Assembly: GCA_035550055.1 (NCBI GenBank)
Contig: DASZRO010000031.1
Span: forward strand, 1 to 64,000
DNA from: Mycobacteriales bacterium
GTDB taxonomy: Bacteria; Actinomycetota; Actinomycetes; JAFAQI01
DNA length: 64,000 nucleotides
Direction: 5' to 3'
Of this stretch, positions 4,934 through 24,293 are shown in pieces (position 1 is the first letter of the stretch; each line of letters begins with the position of its first letter). The notes beneath the pieces were generated by a model. The model was not told the origin of the DNA and did no database searches. It saw nothing but the letters and a program-made list of their open reading frames with translations. A program made the translations under genes and the position numbers.

Positions 4934-6845
4934 GCTGGCTCACCGGCTCGGGCCGTCGGCGTACGTCGTGGGTCTGCGCGAAGCGCAGCGCGCGGCTGTA
5001 GAGCACCGCCGAGGACGCCCGCAGCTGCGCGAGCATGACCTGCGGGAGGCCGTCGGGCTCGCGAGCGATCGCGACGACGCTGACCGCGATCCCGAGCGGG
5101 AGGTACTTGTCGACGGCGGTCGGCAACGGCAGCAGCTGCACCAGGTCGAAGCCGCCGGCGATGACCGCCCCGCTGACCAGTGACCGCCCGCCGAGCACGA
5201 CGACGAGCAGCAGCTCGAGCGAGGTGTTGAAGGAGAACTGGCTGGGGTCCACCGCGGTCTGCGTCATCGCCAGCAACGTCCCGCCGACTGCCGCCACCGC
5301 CGCGCATGCCGCGAACACGGCGAGCTTCGTCACGGTGACGCTGGCGCCGAGCGTCGCGGCGGCGTTCGGTGCGTCGCGGATCATCTGCAGGCGCCGCCCG
5401 ACCGGTCCGCGGCGCAGCAACCAGGCGCCGGCGGTGGCGACGACCAGCACGATCGCGCACAGGTAGTACTGCGCGTGGACGCCGGCCAGCGAGATCGGCC
5501 CGATCTTCGCCGTCGTCAACGTGATGCCCGTGATGCCGCCGCTGATCGAGCGCATCGTGAAGAACACGTTGTCCATGACCAACGCGAACGCCATCGTCGC
5601 CAGAGCGAGGAACAGCCCGGTCAGCCGGAGGACGAGCGCGCCAATGAGCAGGCTGACCGGCACCGCGATGAGAACTGCCACCAGGACGGCCAGCGGGAAC
5701 TTGCCGGCGTCGGTGCCGGCGATGTGTGCCGCGGTGAAGGCGCCGATTCCTGCGAAGCTCATCTGGGCGAGCGAGATCTGCCCGGTCCAGCCGGTGAGGA
5801 CGACCAGGGTCAACGCCACGACGGCGTAGGCCATCGCCTCGGCCAGCGAGTGCACCGTGGCGGCTGCGAAGACGTTCGGCAGGACCGCGAGCGCGACGAT
5901 CGCGCCGACCGCCCACAGCCCGCCGTCGCGCAGCGGGCTGGCGACCGGCCGGGAGCTCGCCAGCGGCCGCGCGGAGGCCCGCACCTCGGTCAGCCGCCTG
6001 CCGTAGGCGACGAGGAGGACGAGCAGGGCGAGGTAGGGAATCGACGTCTCGAGGTTGGCGACGAAGCTCGAGTTGCTGCCGTACTTGGCGAGGATGTTGT
6101 CGATCAGCCCGAGCGCGAGGGAGCCGGCGAAGGCCAACGGCAGGTTCGTCAACCGGCCCAGCACCGCCGGCGCGAAGGAGTAGATCACCAGGAACGGCAG
6201 CACGTAGGTGACCAGGCCCTCCTGCGCGGAGAGCAGGATTCCGGCGATCGCCGCGAAGATCGTCGAGATGATCCAGGCGGCCTGGCTGACCATGCCGGGG
6301 CTGACCGCGACGAGCGAGGCGAGGTCGCGGTTGTCGACCACGGCGCGGGTCGCGGTGCCCAGCCGGGTTCGTCGCAGCAACAGCGACAGGCCGACCGCCA
6401 TCGCCACCGCCAGCAGGAAGGTGCCCGCCTCGTTACCGGTGATCGTGACGTTGCTGAACACGGTGAACTGGCCAGAGGGAAAGATCGTGTTGAGCTGCTC
6501 GTCAGTCGAGCCGAACACGATCGGGACGAGCGTCGTGAAGAAGGCGAGGACGCCGAGTGACACGACGATCTGCACCTCGGGCGCGCTCGAGGCGAGCGAG
6601 CGGAACATCGCCTCGAGAATCAGCCCGAGGATCGGCGCAACGACGACGAGCAGCAGCGGGATGGCGATCCACTGGTCGAGGCCCCAGCGGTCACGGAACT
6701 GCCAGAAGACGTAGGCGCAGAACATCGCGATGCCGCCGTACGCGAAGTTGAAGATGCCCGTCGTCTTGTAGGTCAAGACGATGCCGAGCGAGGCCAGCGA
6801 GTAGATCGCGCCGGCGAACAGCCCGAGGACGATGAAGGGGAGCAA
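4926..6845 (-). CDS. Fused LivH-LivM permease
   Basis: 639 residues, twice the size of a single LIV permease. The N-terminal ~290 residues are LivH-like (starting LGLFAGAIYSLASLGIVLTY, with FNFAYGGIAMF). After a linker near residues 290-310, the rest is LivM-like, with the diagnostic GWTGQISLAQMSFAGIGAF and the loop RRLQMIRDAPNAAATLG. Many transmembrane helices are visible. The first usable start is a TTG at 6845 with no good ribosome site; translation is probably coupled to the binding-protein gene ending 12 bases upstream. Fusion of both permeases is common in Actinobacteria. Confidence 0.92.
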   Translation of the reverse strand: MLPFIVLGLFAGAIYSLASLGIVLTYKTTGIFNFAYGGIAMFCAYVFWQFRDRWGLDQWIAIPLLLVVVAPILGLILEAMFRSLASSAPEVQIVVSLGVLAFFTTLVPIVFGSTDEQLNTIFPSGQFTVFSNVTITGNEAGTFLLAVAMAVGLSLLLRRTRLGTATRAVVDNRDLASLVAVSPGMVSQAAWIISTIFAAIAGILLSAQEGLVTYVLPFLVIYSFAPAVLGRLTNLPLAFAGSLALGLIDNILAKYGSNSSFVANLETSIPYLALLVLLVAYGRRLTEVRASARPLASSRPVASPLRDGGLWAVGAIVALAVLPNVFAAATVHSLAEAMAYAVVALTLVVLTGWTGQISLAQMSFAGIGAFTAAHIAGTDAGKFPLAVLVAVLIAVPVSLLIGALVLRLTGLFLALATMAFALVMDNVFFTMRSISGGITGITLTTAKIGPISLAGVHAQYYLCAIVLVVATAGAWLLRRGPVGRRLQMIRDAPNAAATLGASVTVTKLAVFAACAAVAAVGGTLLAMTQTAVDPSQFSFNTSLELLLVVVLGGRSLVSGAVIAGGFDLVQLLPLPTAVDKYLPLGIAVSVVAIAREPDGLPQVMLAQLRASSAVLYSRALRFAQTHDVRRRPEPVSQHG

Positions 6846-13004: not shown

Positions 13005-14246
13005 TCAGGGCCGGTGCTTGACCACCACGCCGCCCTTCATGACGAACGGCACCCGCGCGAACGTGGTCACGTCGCTCGTCGGATCGCCGCTGACGCCGAT
13101 GATGTCCGCGAGCATGCCAGGGACGATCTGCCCTAGGTCAGGGGTGTCGATGAGGTCGGCGGCAACCGTGGTCGCGGCGCGGATCGCCTGTATCGGCGTC
13201 ATTCCCCGCTTGACGAGTACGTCGAGCTCCTCGGCGTTGCGCCCGTGCCAGATCGCGGGAGCGTCGGTCCCCAACGCGACCTTGACACCCGCCTCGATGG
13301 CCTTGGACAGCGACTCCTTGGCCTTGGGGAACACCTCCGCGGCCTTCGCCTGCAACGACTTCGGCTGGTTGGAGATGTCCCAGTTCTCAGTCAGCGCACA
13401 GGTCGAGACCAGGAACGTGCCGGTGTCGACCAACCGCTGGATCGTCTCGTCGCTGATCATCATGCCGTGCTCGATGCAGTCGATTCCGGCGTCGATCGCC
13501 GCGTTGACCGCCGCGTCCCCGTGGCAGTGGGTGGCGACCCGGATGCCTCTGCGGTGAGCCTCGTCGGCGATCGCGGCGAGCTCCTCGGTGGAATACTGCT
13601 GGGCGCCCGGCGGCCCGGTCGGTGTCATGACGCCGCCGGAGGCACAGCACTTGATGAGCTTCGCGCCATGTCTGATCTGGTAGCGGACCGCTTTGCGGAC
13701 CTCGTCGACCCCGTCGGCGATGCCCTCTTCGACACTCATCGGCATGATGCCCGGGGCGAGGCCGCTCTGCGCGCTCGGATCGAGATGACCTCCGGTCGGG
13801 CAGATCGCATGGCCGGCCGGAATCACCCGCGGCCCCTCGACCCAGCCGGCCTCGATCGCCTCTGACAGGGCGACGTCGACCAGGTAGCCGCCGGTCTTGA
13901 TGAACAACCCGAGGTTCCTGACGGTGGTGAAGCCGGCGTGCAGCGTCCGCCGGCCGTTGAGGGCCGCGCGAAGGCCCATCTTCACCGGGTCCATCCGCAC
14001 CGGGTCGGACAGTCCGGCACCCGGGCCGCCGAGGACGAGGTCCACCTCCATGTCCATCAGGCCGGGGACGAGGGTGAGCCCGGGCAGGTCGATCACCTGG
14101 TCCGCACCGGCTCCCGCCGCCAGGTCGTCGGTGACGGCGGTGATGCGGTCGCCTTCGACGACGACCTTCGCGCCGTCGAGGACCTCACCACTCGCGACGT
14201 CGAGCACGCCCTTCGGCCGAAGCAACGAGACCGTCACGTCCGACAC
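13005..14246 (-). CDS. Amidohydrolase-superfamily protein, HxH motif replaced
   Basis: 413 residues from GTG 14246, chosen because AGAAGGA lies 6-7 bases upstream; the paralogue has the same arrangement. Urease-like composite domain at the ends and a TIM barrel between. The canonical metal-binding PGLID-x-HxH is replaced by PGLMDMEVD. Other metal-site elements remain: Lys in GAKLIKCCASGG, His in ATHCHGD, His in CIEHGMM and Asp in ALGTDAP. It may use one metal, recruit other ligands, or have altered chemistry. Known relatives hydrolyse amides, dipeptides, lactones or organophosphates; the substrate here is unknown. Same operon as the paralogue upstream, 14-base gap. Confidence 0.87.
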   Translation of the reverse strand: MSDVTVSLLRPKGVLDVASGEVLDGAKVVVEGDRITAVTDDLAAGAGADQVIDLPGLTLVPGLMDMEVDLVLGGPGAGLSDPVRMDPVKMGLRAALNGRRTLHAGFTTVRNLGLFIKTGGYLVDVALSEAIEAGWVEGPRVIPAGHAICPTGGHLDPSAQSGLAPGIMPMSVEEGIADGVDEVRKAVRYQIRHGAKLIKCCASGGVMTPTGPPGAQQYSTEELAAIADEAHRRGIRVATHCHGDAAVNAAIDAGIDCIEHGMMISDETIQRLVDTGTFLVSTCALTENWDISNQPKSLQAKAAEVFPKAKESLSKAIEAGVKVALGTDAPAIWHGRNAEELDVLVKRGMTPIQAIRAATTVAADLIDTPDLGQIVPGMLADIIGVSGDPTSDVTTFARVPFVMKGGVVVKHRP

Positions 14247-14260
14247 GCTGTGTCCTTCTC

Positions 14261-15541
14261 TCACTCGCAGGAGCTCCCGTCTTCCGCGTCGCGCTTGTCG
14301 AGGAAGACCTTGCCAGCCTTCATCACGAACCGGACGTCCTGCGTCACGGTGATGTCCGACGTCGGATCGCCTGGGACGGCGATGACGTCAGCGAGACAGC
14401 CCGGCGCGAGCCTGCCGAGCTCGTCGGCACGGTCGATCAGCTGTGCGCTCGTCAGCGTCGCCGCGCGGATCGCATCCAGCGGGGACATCCCCCGGTCGAC
14501 CATCGCCCAGAGCTCCTTGGCGTTGTCGCCGTGCGGGATCGCGGGCGCGTCAGTGCCGCACGCGATGCGCACTCCCGCCGCGATCGCTCGTCCCAGCATC
14601 TCCCTCGCGCGAGGGAAGACCTCCGCCGCCTTGGCCTGCAGCTCGGGCGCCGCGCGGCTGACGTCGAGCCCCTCCGACAGATAGCTGGTCGGGACGAGGA
14701 ACGTCCCACGCTCGACCATCAGCCGGACCGTGTCGTCACTCGCCAGCGAGCCGTGCTCGATGCAGTCGACACCTGCGAGTACGCAGGCGCGGATCGCGGT
14801 GTCTCCGTGCGCGTGCGCCGCGACCTTGACGCCCGCGCGGTGCGCCTCGTCGACGATCGCGGCGAGCTCGTCGTCGGAGTACTGCTGGGCGCCAGGTTCG
14901 CCGCTGTGGGACATCACGCCGCCCGATGCCGAGATCTTGATGACCTTCGCGCCGTACTTGAGTTGGTAGCGAACGCAGGCGCGGACCTGGTCGACGCCGT
15001 TGGCGATGCCTTCCTCGATGCTCAGCGGCAGGACGCCGGGCGCAAAGCGCTGGAACATCGTCGGATCCAGATGACCGCCGGTCGGGGTGATGGCGTGCGC
15101 CGCGGGCACGATCCGCGGCCCGACCATCCAACCGTTGTCGATGGCACGGCCGAGGGCGACGTCGAGCGGGTAGCCACCAGTCTTGACCATCAACCCGAGG
15201 TTGCGGACCGTCGTGAAGCCGGCCAACAGGGTGGTACGCGCGTTCACCGTGCCGCGAAGCGTGCGATACACCGGGTCGTCCTGGACGCCGTGCATCGGCA
15301 GCGGCAGACCGGTCGGCGTCTCCGGACCGCCGATCAACAGGTTGAGCTCCATGTCCATCAGGCCGGGCAGCAACGTGAGGTCGCCGAGGTCGATCTCACG
15401 ATCGACTGGGTCAGCGACGGTTGACCCGACCGAGGCGATGCGATCGCCTGCGACGACCACCCTGGCACCGTCCAGGAGCTCACCGCTGACCACGTCGAGC
15501 ACGGCTTTCGGCCGTAGCACCGTGACCCGAACGTCTGACAC
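14261..15541 (-). CDS. Amidohydrolase-superfamily protein, paralogue lacking HxH
   Basis: 426 residues from GTG 15541 with AGAAGGA upstream. Clearly paralogous to the next gene over the whole length (shared 'TVRNLGL', 'VKTGGYxxDVAL', 'PTGGHLDP', 'GAKVIKISASGGVMSHSGEPG', 'CGTDAPAIPHG'). The first metal motif is PGLMDMELN rather than the usual HxH form. The remaining barrel residues (Lys, HAHGD, IEHGSL, GTDAP) are kept. The divergence suggests two related substrates. Promoter region 15542-15687 contains an imperfect inverted repeat at 15607-15624. Confidence 0.87.
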   Translation of the reverse strand: MSDVRVTVLRPKAVLDVVSGELLDGARVVVAGDRIASVGSTVADPVDREIDLGDLTLLPGLMDMELNLLIGGPETPTGLPLPMHGVQDDPVYRTLRGTVNARTTLLAGFTTVRNLGLMVKTGGYPLDVALGRAIDNGWMVGPRIVPAAHAITPTGGHLDPTMFQRFAPGVLPLSIEEGIANGVDQVRACVRYQLKYGAKVIKISASGGVMSHSGEPGAQQYSDDELAAIVDEAHRAGVKVAAHAHGDTAIRACVLAGVDCIEHGSLASDDTVRLMVERGTFLVPTSYLSEGLDVSRAAPELQAKAAEVFPRAREMLGRAIAAGVRIACGTDAPAIPHGDNAKELWAMVDRGMSPLDAIRAATLTSAQLIDRADELGRLAPGCLADVIAVPGDPTSDITVTQDVRFVMKAGKVFLDKRDAEDGSSCE

Positions 15542-15606
15542 TCGCAGTCCTTCTCGCATCCGAGTCAGGCGACGCCCCGCGCCGGTTTCGTTGTACTGAG
15601 AATGGC

Positions 15607-15687: not shown

Positions 15688-17187
15688 TCAGCCCGCGCGC
15701 GGTCGCGACGTGTACCGGAAGCAGTCACAGCCGGCTGAGAACTGCATGTCCCGGAACAGCGTCGGCCCGTCACGGTGCGCACTGCTGATGTCGATCCCGA
15801 AGGTACCGATGGGGTCGAACGAGGTACCCAGCTGAGAGGCCCCCTGCACCACTCCCGCGCCGGTCAGCGCGGGAGCCTTGGCGACGGCAGCGGCGAGGAG
15901 GTTCACTTCGGTGCACACCTGCACCGCGCCGCCCTTCTCGTTGGCGGTCACGATCGGAAAGGAGTGCTTGCGGAAGAACGCCAGACACTCGAGGGTGCTC
16001 GCGGGCATCGCCGACAGGGACTGCAGGTCAGTCGCCGGCAGCCAGCCAACCGCGACCGCACCGATCATCTCCTTCACCGGGTCGTTCGAGATGATGGCGC
16101 TGAGGTTCTGTTCGGATTGGAAGGCGTAGCGCGGGTAGTAGCCCTGCGTACCTGAGTAGAGCGGGAAGAAGCCACACATCCACGGCGTGGCCTCCACGCA
16201 CATGACCCGGTTGATTCCCTCGACCCGGAACCGAAGCTCTGCCCCTTGCACCGCAGCTTCCATCGCCGCCAGGCCGGCGTCGCTGCTCCCCTTGGTGATG
16301 CCGAAGGCATCGGCGACCTTCAGCCCATGCGCAGCCATTGCCGACTCGAGCGCATGCAGCCCGTCGACTGAGCTCTGCTCGTTGTCGTAGTACAGGACTC
16401 CGAGCTTGTCGCTGGATGCGCCGATGAACTTGTCCGCGATCAGCCGGGGCACCATGACCCTCGCCAGCCGATCGAGGGCGACGTTGTCGGGCATGATCAG
16501 CAGCGGCGCCTCGTCGAACTGCCGCGTCGACAGCTCAGGACCGATGCTGCCGTCGATGACGGCCACGCCCGCCTTGCTGAGGCAGCTGTACAGCGAGGTG
16601 CCGAGCTGCTGACCGAGCACGACGCTGACCTTGACGTCCTCGGTGAAGTGGCTGCAGGCCTGCTGATCGAGCTGGTCGGTCTGGCCGTATGGATTCAGGC
16701 TGAGGTAGCTCGCTTCGATCTGGTGACCCAGCACTCCCCCGTGCGCGTTGAGGTTCGCGAGGTACGCCGACATCAGCGCCTTCGGGTCATTTGCTGCCAG
16801 GCCTTTGCCGATGGCGGCAGTGAGCGTGTTGGTCGAGCCCGAGTCGAGGTAGGGGACGCCAATCGTGATCGGGCCCGGCGGCAGCGCCGAGGTCGCGACC
16901 GGCGACGCGCTGCGCGGAACGTGACCGGGCTGCGTCGGGATCGACGTCGCAGTAGCAGGCCCGCGTACGGTGGTGACCTGCCCGATCGAGCGGCCCGGAA
17001 GGCTGCTGACGCTACTCGACTCGGGTGACTGTGTCGCGGTCGCGGTGGCGGTGGTCGGCACCGTGAACTCGCCGCCGGCCGCCGACGTCTGCGCGGCGCC
17101 CATCTGGATCGTGCTGCCACAGGCGGCGAGCATGCCGATGGCCGCGCCCATCGCAGGTACCCAGAGCCGGCGAATCACGCTGCTCAC
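15688..17187 (-). CDS. Orphan LIV-type substrate-binding lipoprotein
   Basis: 499 residues, GTG start with GGGAG upstream. Lipobox L-A-A-C near residue 22, Ser/Thr linker, then a type-1 periplasmic-binding fold (ITIGVPYLDSGSTNTL, NAHGGVLGHQIE). It ends with a Cys pair (GCDCFRY) also found in the binding protein at 37513-39078 (SCTCFAY). No permease or ATPase gene is adjacent, so it must share a transporter encoded elsewhere or serve as a sensor. The TetR gene directly upstream and the strong palindrome at 17204-17227 imply its own ligand-dependent control. Confidence 0.88.
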   Translation of the reverse strand: MSSVIRRLWVPAMGAAIGMLAACGSTIQMGAAQTSAAGGEFTVPTTATATATQSPESSSVSSLPGRSIGQVTTVRGPATATSIPTQPGHVPRSASPVATSALPPGPITIGVPYLDSGSTNTLTAAIGKGLAANDPKALMSAYLANLNAHGGVLGHQIEASYLSLNPYGQTDQLDQQACSHFTEDVKVSVVLGQQLGTSLYSCLSKAGVAVIDGSIGPELSTRQFDEAPLLIMPDNVALDRLARVMVPRLIADKFIGASSDKLGVLYYDNEQSSVDGLHALESAMAAHGLKVADAFGITKGSSDAGLAAMEAAVQGAELRFRVEGINRVMCVEATPWMCGFFPLYSGTQGYYPRYAFQSEQNLSAIISNDPVKEMIGAVAVGWLPATDLQSLSAMPASTLECLAFFRKHSFPIVTANEKGGAVQVCTEVNLLAAAVAKAPALTGAGVVQGASQLGTSFDPIGTFGIDISSAHRDGPTLFRDMQFSAGCDCFRYTSRPRAG

Positions 17188-17940: not shown

Positions 17941-18711
17941 TCAGGCGCGACGCATGACCGACTCGCTCGGCAGCGGCGGCTGACCGACCGTGGTCCCGCC
18001 GTCGACCGGAAGGACGAGGCCGGTCACCTGGGCGGAGCGTTCGCTGGCGAGATAGACCGCCGCGTGAGCGACGTCGCTCGGCGAGCCGAGTCGTTGCAAC
18101 GGCTGGATGCGGGCGACGATTGACTCGGTGTCGAAGGCGGCGTTGATCTGCGTGGCGATGTTGCCCGGCGCGATGACGTTGACCCGCAGACCGAGCTCGG
18201 CGAGCTCGATGGCCGCACACCGGCTGAAGTGGATGACGCCCGCCTTCGCCGCCCGGTAGGACGAGAACCCGACCCCCGGCTGGATGCCCGCGATCGAGGT
18301 CGTGCTGATGATCGATCCGCCCGGCGCCATCCGCCTTGCCGCCGCCTGCGTGCCGAGCATGACCCCGAGCAGGTCGACGGCGATGACCTTATGGAAGTCC
18401 CGGAGGTCATCCATCATCAGTCGCCGGAATGAGCCGGAGATGCCGGCGTTGTTGACCATCACGTCGAGCTGGCCGAACCGGTCGACCGCCGCGTCGACCA
18501 CGTCGTTCACACTTGTGGCGTCCGAGACGTCGGTGCGGACGAAGTGCGCTGCCCCGCCGAGCGCGCCGGCCACCGCGGCGCCCGCGGCGTCGTCGATGTC
18601 CGCGATGACCACCTTCGCACCCTCCGCGACGAACGTCTCGGCGATCGCCTTGCCGATGCCGTTGGCGGCGCCGGTGACGATGGCGACCTTGCCGGTGAGC
18701 TCGCCGCTCAT
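17941..18711 (-). CDS. Short-chain dehydrogenase/reductase
   Basis: 256 residues, ATG overlapping the P450 stop (ATGA). Classical SDR: TGAANGIGKAIAE for the cofactor, acidic DIDD for NAD preference, NNAG, STTSIAG and catalytic YRAAK. Last gene of the seven-gene oxygenase operon running 24293 to 17941. It probably oxidises the hydroxyl group introduced by the P450 or a Rieske oxygenase to a ketone (inference from operon position). Confidence 0.92.
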   Translation of the reverse strand: MSGELTGKVAIVTGAANGIGKAIAETFVAEGAKVVIADIDDAAGAAVAGALGGAAHFVRTDVSDATSVNDVVDAAVDRFGQLDVMVNNAGISGSFRRLMMDDLRDFHKVIAVDLLGVMLGTQAAARRMAPGGSIISTTSIAGIQPGVGFSSYRAAKAGVIHFSRCAAIELAELGLRVNVIAPGNIATQINAAFDTESIVARIQPLQRLGSPSDVAHAAVYLASERSAQVTGLVLPVDGGTTVGQPPLPSESVMRRA

Positions 18712-19991
18712 CGCGCGGGCTCGAAGGTGAGATGCAGGGCCACGAGCCCGCGCAGCATGTACGTCGGCACGAACCGGAACTTGCGCTGGCCCTCCGGCCC
18801 GTGCTTGTCGGCGTCTATTCGGATCTTGCTGGTGCGGTGCAGAATCCGCTCGAGGGCGACCCGGCCTTCGGTCCTTGCCAGCGGGGCGCCCGGGCAGAAG
18901 TGGGTGCCGTGGCCGAACGCGAGATGCTCACGCGCGTTGGCACGCGCCGGGTCGAGGGCTGCCGGATCGTCAAAGCGCCGCGGGTCGCGGTTGGCGGCGC
19001 CGTTGAGCAGCATCACGGTCGTGCCCGCGGGGATGTCCACGCCGCCGACCGTCGTGCCCACCCGGGCGACCCGGAAGTCCCCCTTGATCGGACTCTCGAT
19101 CCGTAGGACCTCCTCGACGAAGTTCGGGATGGCCGTCGGATCGGCGCGCAGCGCGTCCTGGATGTCCGGGTGCTCGGCGACGATCCGCAGCGCCGACGCC
19201 AGCAGCCGCACCGTCGTCTCCTGACCGGCGGCGAACAGGTTCGCGGCAACCCGGACCACGTCGAGGACCTCCGGCGTCGATCCGTCCGGGAAGGTCGCCT
19301 CGGCCATGCGCGTCATGATGTCGGCCCGCGGCGCACGGCGGCGGTCCTCGATGTAGTGGCTGAACTTGTCGTAGAGGAACTCCAGTGGCGTGTGGGCCAT
19401 CTGGTTCGACTCTCCGGTGCCGAATCCGCTGGTGCGGGCCAGCCGATCGCGGAACTCCGGGCGATCATCGTCGGGCACGCCGAGCAGATCAGCGATCACG
19501 AGCATCGCGAACGGCGACGCGAACGCCGAGACGAACTCGCAACCGCCTTCGTCGATGAACTCGTCGAGCTGGCGGTCCGCGATCTCCCAGATCGCGGCTT
19601 CGTTCTCCTTGAGCCGCTTCGGGGTGAGCATCCGCATCGTCAGGCCGCGGTGCGCGCCGTGTTTCGGCGGGTCGAAGGTCGGTAGCTGGTCGCTGAACGG
19701 CAGCTCGTCGCGGTGCGCCTCGATGAGCGCCGTCACGTCCTCGCCGACGAGCGGCACGCTGAAGCCCGGGAACGGTCCGGTCACCGAGTTGGCCGAGGAG
19801 AAGGTGGCGGCGTCGCGGTAGACCTCGAGCGCCTCGTCGTACCCGGTGATCATGACGACGCCCTCGTGCGGCTCGCGATGGACCGGACACTGCCCGCGAA
19901 GCTGCTCGTAGTACGGGTACGGGTCGGCAAGGACGGCGCCGCTGCGAAAGAAGTCGATCTCGTCGACAGCGCTCTCGTCGCCACCGCTCAT
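18708..19991 (-). CDS. Cytochrome P450
   Basis: 427 residues from ATG 19991, which overlaps the small-protein stop (ATGA); a longer reading upstream lies inside that gene. Soluble bacterial class I type. I-helix AAGQETT, EVLR for the ExxR motif, and haem-ligand loop FGHGTHFCPGAPLART near residues 360-375. It starts DEIDFFRSGAVLADPYPYYEQLRG, very like the P450 at 29283-30560, so the two are paralogues. It needs a ferredoxin and reductase: a ferredoxin gene lies at 42471-42662 and a reductase in this operon. Hydroxylates an unidentified hydrophobic substrate. Confidence 0.95.
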   Translation of the reverse strand: MSGGDESAVDEIDFFRSGAVLADPYPYYEQLRGQCPVHREPHEGVVMITGYDEALEVYRDAATFSSANSVTGPFPGFSVPLVGEDVTALIEAHRDELPFSDQLPTFDPPKHGAHRGLTMRMLTPKRLKENEAAIWEIADRQLDEFIDEGGCEFVSAFASPFAMLVIADLLGVPDDDRPEFRDRLARTSGFGTGESNQMAHTPLEFLYDKFSHYIEDRRRAPRADIMTRMAEATFPDGSTPEVLDVVRVAANLFAAGQETTVRLLASALRIVAEHPDIQDALRADPTAIPNFVEEVLRIESPIKGDFRVARVGTTVGGVDIPAGTTVMLLNGAANRDPRRFDDPAALDPARANAREHLAFGHGTHFCPGAPLARTEGRVALERILHRTSKIRIDADKHGPEGQRKFRFVPTYMLRGLVALHLTFEPAR

Positions 19992-20320
19992 GTCACTGGC
20001 TCCCGGGTGCGCTCGAGCTGGGCCGATCCGGTGTCGACGGGCAGCGGCTGGTTCCACACCTCGATCGGATAGGACACCAGCGCGTACGAGAAGAGCAAGT
20101 GCATCAGGTTGCGCGCCGGATCCGGTAGCCCGCTCAGCTCGAACTGGTCGCAATAGTCCATCGCCGCCTCTACGCGCGGGAAGCAGGCGTCGTAGAACGA
20201 CCTCATGTCCGCCATCGAGCTCGCCAGCCGCGTGGCCCACCGGTCGGGCTCGGCGGCCAGGCACCACGTGGCGGCGAACGGCTCGAGGTCGGCGAACTCC
20301 TCCGGGAGCAGCGCGGTCAT
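19988..20320 (-). CDS. Small conserved partner of Rieske oxygenase, copy 1
   Basis: 110 residues, ATG overlapping the Rieske gene stop (ATGA). No signal peptide, membrane helix or Cys-rich motif. Homologous to the 108-residue protein at 22675-23001. Shared positions include a leading L-P-x-x-F-x-x-LEPF, W, E-x-DR-x-A-x-R-x-AS-x-M, FYDA-x-FP and P-x-E-x-W-x-QP. Each copy follows a Rieske oxygenase gene. A small structural or substrate-handling subunit is the likely role, by position; it does not look like the classical beta subunit (about 160-180 residues, cone-shaped fold). I do not recognise the family. Confidence 0.82.
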   Translation of the reverse strand: MTALLPEEFADLEPFAATWCLAAEPDRWATRLASSMADMRSFYDACFPRVEAAMDYCDQFELSGLPDPARNLMHLLFSYALVSYPIEVWNQPLPVDTGSAQLERTREPVT

Positions 20321-21582
20321 CGCGTCGCCTCCGCCTTCGGCCGGCCGGCCGCGGCGACCCAGTCGCCGACCGACTTGTGGAAGTGGCGAACCAGGATCTC
20401 CTGGTCGTTGAGGGGGTAGGCGTCGAACGCCTCCGACTCCAGGCCGAGCTGCGTCCCGTCGAGGGTGCCGGCGTCCTGAAGGGCGTACTCCTTGACCGTG
20501 ATCGCGGCGTACTCGCGGGCGAGCCGCTCCCGAGCGGTCCTGGCAGGCGTGAACCACAGGTCCGCCTCGAAGACGTGCGTACTGTGCGAGGTCGGCCAGA
20601 ACCGGTAGCTGAGGTACCAGTTCCGCTCGTAGATCAAGATCTCCAGGTTCGGGAAGATCTGGAAGTTGTCGATCCCCCAGCGCTTCACGTTCCCGGGGTT
20701 GACGCCCGCCAGCTCGCCGTCGAGGGTCCCCGCCTCCCACGGGCCCATGTTCCCGCTGCGCAGCAGCACCTCGGTGGGGTACATCGTCTCGGGCGGCCAC
20801 TTGTGCTTCTGCGAGCCGGTCGTGCTGACCACGCGGTGCGGTCCGTCGAGCTGGTAGTGCGCACCTTCGAAGGTGGCGTTCGGGTCGCGGTGGATGGGTC
20901 CGAGCTGCTCGGTGTGCAGTGGGGGTACGTGGTAGTACTCCTGAAAGGCGTCGATGAACACCTTCCAGTTGCTGTTGTTCTCGGCCCGGAACGAGTAACG
21001 CTCGGTCATCTGTCCGAACGGGTAGTTCTCGAGCGCGCCGATCATCGATCCGAGGAACTCGCGCAACGAGCACGGCGGCGTCTTGGCCAGGTTGACGAAG
21101 ATGAAGCCGGCCCAGACCTCGCAGTGCACCGCCGCGAGCCCCAGGTTGCTCTTGTCGACGTCGAAGAACTCGCTTTCCTGATGGACGTAGGTGCACGCGC
21201 CGTCCATGCCGTAGCGCCAGCCGTGGTACTTGCAGACGAACTGCCGGGAGAACCCGCGCGCCTCCTGCGTCGGCGTGGTGTCCCAGACCAGCTTGTTGCC
21301 GCGGTGCCGGCAGACGTTGTGGAACGCGCGGACGGTGTCGTCGGCGCCGCGCGTGACGATCACCGACGTCCGGGCGGCGACCAGGTCCTTGGTGAACCAG
21401 CTGCCCTTGCGCGGCAGGTCCTCGACGCGCCCGACGTTCAGCCACGCCTGCCGGAAGATCGCGTCCTGCTCGCCGCGGTAGAACTCCGGCGAGATGGAGT
21501 CCCGAAACGACACCGGCTTGGTGCCGAGCTCGGGATAGTGCTGGGTCCACGTGCCTTCGGCCGGTCTCGGCGGACTGGTCAC
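20317..21582 (-). CDS. Rieske non-haem iron oxygenase, alpha subunit, copy 1
   Basis: 421 residues from GTG 21582, decided by an ideal AGGAGG six bases upstream. Rieske 2Fe-2S ligands in CRHRGNK and CKYHGWRY (about residues 75-100). Mononuclear iron site IDAFQEYYHVPPLH (about residues 190-205), with the bridging Asp and two His. Paralogous to 23013-24293; both open with G-(T/S)-WTQH and D-S-I-S-P-E-F-Y. It would hydroxylate a ring or alkyl carbon using O2 and electrons from the reductase encoded just upstream. Not clearly a KshA orthologue; the substrate is unknown. Confidence 0.94.
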   Translation of the reverse strand: MTSPPRPAEGTWTQHYPELGTKPVSFRDSISPEFYRGEQDAIFRQAWLNVGRVEDLPRKGSWFTKDLVAARTSVIVTRGADDTVRAFHNVCRHRGNKLVWDTTPTQEARGFSRQFVCKYHGWRYGMDGACTYVHQESEFFDVDKSNLGLAAVHCEVWAGFIFVNLAKTPPCSLREFLGSMIGALENYPFGQMTERYSFRAENNSNWKVFIDAFQEYYHVPPLHTEQLGPIHRDPNATFEGAHYQLDGPHRVVSTTGSQKHKWPPETMYPTEVLLRSGNMGPWEAGTLDGELAGVNPGNVKRWGIDNFQIFPNLEILIYERNWYLSYRFWPTSHSTHVFEADLWFTPARTARERLAREYAAITVKEYALQDAGTLDGTQLGLESEAFDAYPLNDQEILVRHFHKSVGDWVAAAGRPKAEATR

Positions 21583-21595
21583 TGCTGCCTCCTGG

Positions 21596-22672
21596 TCACG
21601 TCTCGTACACCACACGCACGACCGGCGAGACGGGCACCGTCTGACAGGTCAGCACCCAACCGGCTTCGACCTCCTCGTCGGTGAGGATGTCGTTGACCGC
21701 CATCGAGACCTCGCCCTCCACGACCTGCGCCATGCACGTCGCGCAGTGGCCGGCCTCGCACGACGACGGCGCGGACATCCCGTTCCAGCGCGCCGACTCG
21801 AGGATCGTCAGCTTGTCGCGCTGGCTGACCGTCTTGGTCTCGGAGCCGACCGTGATCGTGAGAGTTCGCTCCTCATCGCTGTCGACCAGTGCCACGGCGA
21901 ACGGCGGCAGCTGCGGAAGCGCGGCCGGTGTGAAGCGCTCGATGTGGATGCAGTCGGTCGCCACACCCGAGCGGGCGAGCCCGGCTTGCACGACCTCCAT
22001 GAACCCGGTCGGCCCGCAGACGTAGAACTCGCGGTCGCCGGCGGCGTCGGCAAACGACGAGACCATGGCTTGCGAGACGAACCCGCTTGCGGCATCGCTG
22101 TGGTGGTGAAGGTCGAGCCGCTCCGGGAACTGCGCAGCGAGCATGTCGAGCGTCGAACCGAAGATGGCCGAGTCACGGTCGCGGTTGGCGAACAGCAGGC
22201 TCACCCGCCGGCTCGAGCCGTGCAGGACCGACTTCACCATCGACAGGATCGGGGTGATGCCGCTGCCCGCGGCGAACATCACGAGGTCGGCCTCGGAGTC
22301 CGGGAGCAGGAACGCCCCTGCCGGCACGCTGACCGGGAGCACGTCACCGACCGCGACCGAGTCGTGCAGCCAGCACGACACCGGGCCGTCGGGGACTCGC
22401 TTCACCGTGACCTGCAGGTCAAGGTCGGTCTCGGGAGCCGACGACATCGAGTAGCTGCGCAGGTGCGGCACGCCGTCGACGACCGCCCGGATCGTGACGA
22501 ACTGACCGGGACGGTAGGTGTAGCGGTCCGCGAGATCGGCCGGCACGTCGAATCCGATCGAGATCGCGTCGGCCGTCTCACGGACGACCCGCTGCACCGC
22601 GAGGTCGTGGTAACGATCGCTGCGCGCCGCCTCAGCCATGCCGGACGCTCGCTCGGTCAACAGGCTCGCCAC
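21596..22672 (-). CDS. Oxygenase reductase (FAD, NADH, plant-type 2Fe-2S), KshB-like
   Basis: 358 residues if the GTG at 22672 is used; it lies two bases after the preceding stop, suggesting coupling. An ATG at 22639 is an alternative. FAD domain RSYSMSSAP, NAD domain AAGSGITPILSM and YVCGPTGFMEV, and a C-terminal ferredoxin domain CEAGHCATC then a fourth Cys in VLTCQT. This domain order is that of class IA-type oxygenase reductases such as KshB, HmpA-like PaaE and related proteins. Lying between the two Rieske cassettes, it most simply serves both. Confidence 0.93.
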   Translation of the reverse strand: MASLLTERASGMAEAARSDRYHDLAVQRVVRETADAISIGFDVPADLADRYTYRPGQFVTIRAVVDGVPHLRSYSMSSAPETDLDLQVTVKRVPDGPVSCWLHDSVAVGDVLPVSVPAGAFLLPDSEADLVMFAAGSGITPILSMVKSVLHGSSRRVSLLFANRDRDSAIFGSTLDMLAAQFPERLDLHHHSDAASGFVSQAMVSSFADAAGDREFYVCGPTGFMEVVQAGLARSGVATDCIHIERFTPAALPQLPPFAVALVDSDEERTLTITVGSETKTVSQRDKLTILESARWNGMSAPSSCEAGHCATCMAQVVEGEVSMAVNDILTDEEVEAGWVLTCQTVPVSPVVRVVYET

Positions 22673-22674
22673 GG

Positions 22675-23001
22675 CTACGGGCGCGGTTCCACCGTGACGT
22701 CGATCGAGGCGGCGCCACTGTCCGGCACGTGAGGCTGTCGCCATGCCTCCACGGGAAAGGACACCGTGACCAGCGAGGAGAACAGCCAGAGCAGGTTGCG
22801 GTCTTCCTCGCAGATCCCGTCGATCGTGACGCCGGTCAGATAGTCGGTGCCGCTTTCGAGCAACGGGAACGCCGCGTCGTAGAACGCCTGGAGCTCCTCC
22901 ATCGTGCTGGCGATCCGCTTGGCGTAGCGGTCGGCCTCGCTCGGCAGGATCCACTGCGAGAACGGCTCGAGGGACGAGAACTGTGCAGGAAGGGTCGCCA
23001 T
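22675..23001 (-). CDS. Small conserved partner of Rieske oxygenase, copy 2
   Basis: 108 residues, ATG with AGGAG nine bases upstream. Paralogue of 19988-20320: LPAQFSSLEPF, EADRYAKRIASTM, FYDAAFP and PVEAWRQP align with the other copy. It follows the second Rieske gene by 11 bases. Repetition of the same gene pair in one operon argues for a functional Rieske/small-protein unit. Function unknown. Confidence 0.82.
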   Translation of the reverse strand: MATLPAQFSSLEPFSQWILPSEADRYAKRIASTMEELQAFYDAAFPLLESGTDYLTGVTIDGICEEDRNLLWLFSSLVTVSFPVEAWRQPHVPDSGAASIDVTVEPRP

Positions 23002-23012
23002 CGCCGTACTCC

Positions 23013-24293
23013 TCAGGACGCAGCCGGGACGGCCGCGGGACCGGTCTTGCTCGCTTGGTAGCGCTCGACCCATTCGCGGCAGGTCGTGTGCATGTGCCGG
23101 AGCATGACCTCCTGGTCGCACAGCGGGAACTCGGTGATCGCCCCGGACTGGAGCATGGTCTGCGTCGCTTCGAGGGTGTTCGCGTCCTGCAGGCCGTACT
23201 CCTTGAACGTGACGACGGCGAGCTCCTGCTGGAGCCGCTCGAGCGCGGTCTTGGGCGGCGCGAAGTACAGCGATGTCTCGAACACGTGCGTGTTGTACGA
23301 CGTCGGCCAGTAGTGGTAGGTGAGGTACCAGTTCGGCTTCCAGAGCAGCAGCATGAAGTTCGGGAAGAACAGGAACGAGTCGATCCCCCAGGCCGGGCTC
23401 TTCGCGGGGTTCACCCCCGGCGGCAGCTCACCGATGTCGGGCCCGTCCCACGGGCCGAACAGGCCGCTGCGCAACGCTCGCTCGATGGGCTTGACCATGT
23501 TCAGGTCCTTGGGCGGGGACATGCCACCCCACGACGAGACCATGGCGTGCGGGCCGTCCACGTCGTAGGCAAGCGCTTCGTAGCCGTAGCTCTGGAGCTT
23601 GCGCGACTCCTCGGACACCGACTGCTTCGCGTGCAGAACGGGTGCGTGGTAGAACTCCATGAAGGCGTCGATGAACAGCTTCCAGTTGCTGCCGATCTCC
23701 GACCGGTACGTGTGCTTCTGGGTCATCAGCTCGAACGGGTACGCCTCGATCCCCGCACCCATCTCGCCCATGTAGTCCCGCAGCGGCTGCGGCTCCTGGT
23801 CGAAGGTGATGAAGATGAACCCGGCCCAGACGTCGATGGTGATCGGCACCAGCCCGAACTTGTCCTTGTCGAGGTCGAAGAACTCGCTCTCCTGCTGGAC
23901 GAAGGTCAGCTTGCCGTCGAGGTCGTAGCGCCAACCGTGGTACTTGCAGGTGAACTGCCGGCAGGTGCCGTCGACCTCCTCCTTCGGGAAGTCGGTCCAC
24001 GCCAGCTTGTTGCCTCGATGCCGGCACATGTTGTGGAACGCCCGCAGCTCGCCGTCACGGTTCTTGACGATGAGCACGGAGGTCTTGGCGGCGTCGAGCT
24101 CCTTGGTGAAGAAGCTGCCCGGCTTCGGCAGCTGCTCGACCCGGCCGACGTTGAGCCAGGTCTTTTTGAAGATCGCCTCTTGCTCGAGCGCGTAGAACTC
24201 CGGCGAGATCGAGTCGCCGTACGACACCGGCTCGGTGGACAGACCGAAGTGCTGAGTCCACGAGCCCTCTGCGGGCTTGTTGAAGTGCGCCAT
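23013..24293 (-). CDS. Rieske non-haem iron oxygenase, alpha subunit, copy 2
   Basis: 426 residues from ATG 24293, supported by GAGAGGG upstream; an in-frame extension into the intergenic region is less likely. Rieske ligands CRHRGNK and CKYHGWRY, and iron site IDAFMEFYHAPVLH. First gene of the operon. It shares long similarity with copy 1, including SEFFD-(V/L)-DK and the C-terminal 'EYxLQDAxTL' segment, so a tandem duplication followed by divergence is likely. It may act on a different position or a later intermediate. Confidence 0.94.
   Translation of the reverse strand: MAHFNKPAEGSWTQHFGLSTEPVSYGDSISPEFYALEQEAIFKKTWLNVGRVEQLPKPGSFFTKELDAAKTSVLIVKNRDGELRAFHNMCRHRGNKLAWTDFPKEEVDGTCRQFTCKYHGWRYDLDGKLTFVQQESEFFDLDKDKFGLVPITIDVWAGFIFITFDQEPQPLRDYMGEMGAGIEAYPFELMTQKHTYRSEIGSNWKLFIDAFMEFYHAPVLHAKQSVSEESRKLQSYGYEALAYDVDGPHAMVSSWGGMSPPKDLNMVKPIERALRSGLFGPWDGPDIGELPPGVNPAKSPAWGIDSFLFFPNFMLLLWKPNWYLTYHYWPTSYNTHVFETSLYFAPPKTALERLQQELAVVTFKEYGLQDANTLEATQTMLQSGAITEFPLCDQEVMLRHMHTTCREWVERYQASKTGPAAVPAAS

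Follow-up and report, generated by a model that had tools for sequence, protein, structure and literature searches.

A family of small proteins encoded next to one clade of Rieske oxygenases: candidate accessory subunits with a predicted all-helical fold

Introduction

Many aromatic and heterocyclic compounds are broken down in pathways that begin with Rieske oxygenases (ROs), and there is interest in these enzymes as biocatalysts. Classical RO beta subunits (Ring_hydroxyl_B) have an NTF2-like fold; they are non-catalytic proteins of about 160-190 residues encoded beside the RO alpha gene. A ring-attacking oxygenase of another type, protocatechuate 4,5-dioxygenase, has a small helical partner, its subunit LigA.

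The solved RO oxygenases are listed in a 2025 review as alpha3, alpha3beta3, alpha3alpha'3 and alpha3alpha3, with CntA and Stc2 as alpha3 trimers that lack any other subunit (PMC12445004). None of these quaternary types includes a small helical subunit. We found one precedent for a non-catalytic RO helper of another fold, the GST-superfamily protein NdmE, without which the caffeine demethylase complex NdmCDE does not fold and assemble (PMC10380055). The carnitine monooxygenase CntA, the glycine betaine monooxygenase GbcA and Stc2, all of them alpha-only, are the nearest relatives with a structure or a name for the two RO alpha subunits studied here, although the similarity is mostly confined to the Rieske half. 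The reductases of these systems (GbcB-like) are similar to the one encoded at our locus.

Results

Two RO genes in the window are each followed by a small gene

The window, i.e. the whole stretch of 64,000 nucleotides that was analysed, harbours on its minus strand two RO alpha genes, each immediately followed by a gene for a protein of about 110 residues. In order of transcription, the genes are:

23013..24293, minus strand: RO alpha B, 426 residues counted from the ATG, first gene of the putative operon
22675..23001, minus strand: small protein B, 108 residues, ATG 11 nt past the stop of RO B
21596..22672, minus strand: reductase with FAD/NAD and [2Fe-2S] domains, PaaE/GbcB-like, start at GTG 22672 or ATG 22639
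20317..21582, minus strand: RO alpha A, 421 residues, GTG start inferred from the alignment with RO B
19988..20320, minus strand: small protein A, 110 residues, ATG overlapping the stop of RO A by 4 nt (ATGA)
18708..19991, minus strand: cytochrome P450 (PF00067, 1.2e-23), ATG overlapping the stop of small protein A in the same 4-nt manner
17941..18711, minus strand: short-chain dehydrogenase (adh_short_C2, 1.2e-59), following the P450

The tight packing of these genes and their overlaps point to a single translationally coupled operon running from RO B to the short-chain dehydrogenase. Based on their domains, both neighbours of the small proteins are full RO alpha subunits, with Pfam matches to Rieske and Ring_hydroxyl_A (5.9e-16 and 1.1e-35 for RO B, 1.1e-13 and 2e-43 for RO A). 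Both have the Rieske motif CxH..CxxH (CRHRG...CKYH) and an ExxH-x4-H motif (ExYH-x4-H), which covers two His and the bridging acid. The reductase harbours Fer2, NAD_binding_1 and FAD_binding_6 domains (Pfam), and it also matches PaaE-like (4.9e-74) and GbcB-like (1.5e-52) models, both under the curated cut-offs. Downstream of the operon, the window also contains two similar tandem amidohydrolase genes with ORFs overlapping by 4 nt (13005-15559, minus strand). The gene at 15688-17187 encodes a possible substrate-binding protein of 490 residues, whose N-terminus resembles a signal sequence and which has no Pfam match at 1e-5.

The small proteins form a family absent from the libraries searched

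Small proteins A and B share 43% identity and 65% positives over 106 residues (BLASTP, E 8e-32). This similarity is far beyond chance: members turn up in hundreds of genomes and, save for the exceptions described below, have an RO as their neighbour in every context inspected. Protein B has relatives that are 79% identical. The initial annotation had noted four motifs common to the two proteins, LEPF, DRxAxRxAS, FYDAxFP and PxExWxQP, and all are indeed present in both. Across the family they are strict only in part: five residues never vary (P5, W17, R25, R29 and L70, numbered as in protein B), while F8 and E85 each reach 98% conservation. In the C-terminal tail that contains E85, Q89, P90, D94 and P106 are found at 71-85%. 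No Cys or His is conserved among the 137 paired members examined, which makes a metal or redox centre unlikely. For the same reason, we rejected the possibility that the small protein is a Rieske or plant-type ferredoxin or another electron carrier. The Rieske neighbours had also been described as divergent, and they are so to a similar extent, with 52% identity between RO A and RO B.

No Pfam or NCBIfam model matched any of 35 diverse members of the family, and no PDB chain matched the family profile below E 0.16, the weak matches being unrelated helical proteins. A Foldseek search of the PDB with the small protein model gave a best E of 3.2, short helical bundles being poorly discriminated. 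Protein A alone has a weak Pfam match to DUF3261 (E 0.098), which is below the cut-off and not shared by other members. A search of viral_contigs yielded no family match. In the open-access literature, we found no RO accessory protein of this kind. IifC and IifD of the indole pathway were considered as possible described members and rejected, the pair being a flavoprotein oxygenase plus the flavin reductase that serves it. Pfam, NCBIfam and the PDB yielded no match, whether single proteins or the family profile were used. The family is thus absent from the protein-family libraries searched and widespread, and its description as an undescribed family paired with ROs holds for these libraries, the PDB and the open-access literature.

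The family is present across Actinomycetota and Proteobacteria, next to RO genes

A scan of genome_contigs yielded >550 relatives, of which 80 were kept. These come from Streptomyces, Amycolatopsis, Frankia, Mycobacterium, Nocardia, Acidimicrobiia and others, and from a metagenome-assembled genome labelled Proteobacteria. In the window's class, 49 of 395 genomes carry the family, often with 3-7 copies each. Plasmid records, in which the small gene, where annotated, is a 'hypothetical protein', add members from Sphingomonas, Novosphingobium, Sphingobium, Acinetobacter, Cupriavidus, Variovorax, Burkholderia, Paroceanicella, Azospirillum and Rhodococcus. The 129 members at 123 loci (L022-L144) analysed for their genetic environments belong to Actinomycetota and to Alpha-, Beta- and Gammaproteobacteria.

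An RO alpha ORF adjoins 128 of these 129 members on the same strand at a distance of at most 67 nt, directly upstream of the small gene in 126 cases and directly downstream in 2. The 129th member, on plasmid p1 of Cupriavidus necator (L031), is still an intact ORF located right after the remnant of an RO from the paired clade, which has decayed to its last 29 codons (5835-6336 of that locus). As these loci were gathered with the small protein as the query, they address the direction 'small protein implies RO', which is well tested. The small genes start between -20 and +50 nt relative to the RO stop, and 71 of 161 pairs overlap, 24 of them by 4 nt. Beyond the RO, the contents of the clusters vary, including genes for formamidase, CoA transferases, cupins, asparaginase, P450s and flavin monooxygenases. 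The electron donors encoded near the family are also diverse, with the PaaE/GbcB-like reductase in the window and PDR/VanB-type reductases or ferredoxins at other loci. The reversed order, in which the small gene precedes the RO gene, was seen in a few proteobacterial clusters (5965-7635 of L032 and 10543-12086 of L028), and coordinates indicate the same order on the Burkholderia arboris plasmid NZ_CP101526.

The paired ROs form one clade

We performed the converse analysis with ROs as queries, considering full-length ROs. Those with at least about 32% identity to the queries were paired where checked, with two kinds of exception. The first one consists of five orphan ROs (L175-L179), 65-66% identical to RO B, from five genomes in one family of large actinomycete genomes. 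No small gene was found within the 6-7 kb fetched around each of them. The second one corresponds to the IS6100-rearranged lindane plasmids of Sphingobium MI1205 and Sphingomonas MM-1, in which the small gene sits beside linC between IS6100 copies and a truncated RO lies 3-4 kb away. This arrangement is possibly a relic of the operon from which linC was recruited. At these sites (5968-6330 of L182 and 4968-5330 of L183), an EthD-domain gene is also adjacent to the small gene.

A tree was built from 58 paired ROs together with the 5 orphans and, as controls, 13 unpaired ROs. Paired and orphan ROs form one clade (SH-aLRT 100), with the closest unpaired ROs outside. A single origin of the paired ROs is well supported for this sampled set and not beyond, the controls being the nearest unpaired ROs of the window's class only and several proteobacterial sequences being on long branches. 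The family is almost never found away from this one RO clade. The orphans, which lack an adjacent small gene, either share a partner in trans or can do without one. Borrowing in trans is possible, as these ROs branch off late within the paired clade, have retained all 14 positions specific to it, and come from genomes with 3-7 other small genes.

The distances between small proteins and those between their ROs are correlated, with r = 0.885 as compared with 0.27 for the best of 500 permutations, and the slope of divergence of the small protein versus the RO is 0.95. In genomes with at least two pairs, each small protein groups with its own RO in 113 of 117 quartets. These comparisons of distances and quartets show that the RO-small protein pairs are inherited as units. 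The initial annotation had proposed co-evolution, a claim that stands in part: the distances do correlate and the pairs are kept together, but the co-inheritance of one operon unit suffices to explain both the correlation and the quartets, with no need for compensating mutations.

The small protein is predicted to be all-helical with a conserved tail

AlphaFold2 was run on protein B with 10 relatives. The model of protein B is all-helical, with four helices (residues 6-17, 22-31, 34-56 and 65-81). The mean pLDDT per block is about 90-96 up to residue 80, and the tail from about residue 82 is at 51-59. The small protein is thus predicted to combine an all-helical fold with a conserved, unstructured C-terminal tail. 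That this tail is conserved yet unstructured in the model suggests folding upon contact with a partner. We also modelled a natural RO-stop-small protein stretch with the stop read through (AlphaFold; L080, from Streptomyces sp. NBS 14/10, plus eight similar loci). This fused model, in which a single chain cannot show contacts spanning two protomers of a trimer, revealed no confident interface, with a pLDDT of about 55-70 for the small part and <50 for the tail.

Discussion

The position of the small gene directly downstream of the alpha gene is that of a classical beta subunit, and the small protein, like the latter, would be non-catalytic. Nevertheless, it is much shorter (110 residues) and is predicted to be all-helical, in contrast with the alpha+beta NTF2 fold, and its family profile has a probability of 0.1% against Ring_hydroxyl_B (hhalign). 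A Ring_hydroxyl_B/SnoaL identity (PF00866) is also at odds with the lack of a Pfam match in the 35 members. Furthermore, five clusters (Acinetobacter, Azospirillum, Paroceanicella, Novosphingobium EMRT-2 and Variovorax) contain the gene for a genuine SnoaL_4 or SnoaL protein in addition to that for the small protein, which argues that the small protein is not the beta subunit. We therefore regard even a highly diverged beta subunit as having a negligible chance of being correct. The initial annotation had considered the proteins too short and different for that role and had named a SnoaL/NTF2 match as the result that would reclassify them; no such match was obtained. LigA is likewise a small helical partner of a ring-attacking oxygenase, but its partner enzyme is different, and we found no similarity to the LigA-like subunits (PF07746; hhalign 3.7%). 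As for NdmE, it resembles the small protein in its proposed role as a non-catalytic partner of a Rieske-type oxygenase, but it belongs to the GST superfamily and to a single specialized system, NdmCDE, whereas the small family has no Pfam GST match.

We judge it most likely, with slightly better than even confidence, that the small protein is a non-catalytic, all-helical, stoichiometric accessory subunit of the oxygenase component in one RO clade, considering the presence of one copy per RO, the overlapping genes, the similar divergence of the two proteins, the restriction to one clade and the apparently partner-seeking tail. Against it stand the five orphan ROs and the lack of confident docking in the fused model, which as a single chain would miss contacts across protomers. 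The main rival is a dedicated assembly chaperone that would bind new RO alpha chains, help them fold, acquire their cluster or iron, or trimerize, and then leave the mature enzyme. A small, helical protein without metal ligands, encoded by a gene that often overlaps alpha, would suit that role. Such a chaperone would give an identical genomic pattern, and orphan ROs could borrow a chaperone in trans in genomes with 3-7 other copies. However, general chaperones are usually shared, and one copy per RO together with a similar rate of divergence suggests a specific, lasting partner; we consider the chaperone clearly less likely than the subunit. An effector or docking protein that binds reversibly, as the regulatory proteins of diiron monooxygenases do, and thereby controls how electrons are delivered or how substrate gains access would be compatible with the different electron donors of the family, but there is no Pfam match to a known effector family, and we find this role improbable. 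More doubtful still is a separate small enzyme of the pathway, for instance an isomerase acting on the RO product: the family does sit in catabolic clusters and its polar residues R25, R29 and E85 are strictly conserved or nearly so, but it tracks the RO rather than a substrate or pathway, the contents of the clusters differ widely, and there is no conserved Cys or His.

As an accessory subunit, the small protein would be made together with its own alpha subunit from the adjacent, often overlapping genes. It would probably bind the alpha trimer via W17, R25, R29, E85 and the C-terminal tail, which would fold upon binding. Its most likely effect would be to stabilize the oxygenase and to shape the docking of the reductase or ferredoxin. 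It would act in addition to any SnoaL-type beta subunit, not instead of it. More tentatively, and with somewhat less than even confidence, we propose that this RO clade has a quaternary type outside the standard list, in which a small helical subunit joins the alpha trimer and, in some clusters, alpha occurs with both a SnoaL-type beta and the small subunit. If the clade needs its 110-residue partner, an alpha gene cloned alone would give an inactive or unstable enzyme, and the partner is easily left out as it is annotated only as a 'hypothetical protein', if at all.

Regarding the host pathways, skatole induces gene1684 (RO alpha), gene1687 (styrene monooxygenase) and gene1690 (ferredoxin) in Acinetobacter piscicola p38 (PMC11434297). 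In an Acinetobacter plasmid cluster of our set, the gene order is RO, small protein, SnoaL, monooxygenase, flavin reductase, SDR and ferredoxin. The spacing of the three induced genes fits this order, and a member of the family thus probably belongs to the skatole-induced operon.

Lastly, two RO-small protein pairs located 2.5-6.6 kb apart, as in the window, are found at five loci of Mycolicibacterium, Mycobacterium and Nocardia (L122, L126, L130, L138 and L139). In L130, a related reductase is encoded between the two pairs, and thus this cassette of two pairs may be ancient.
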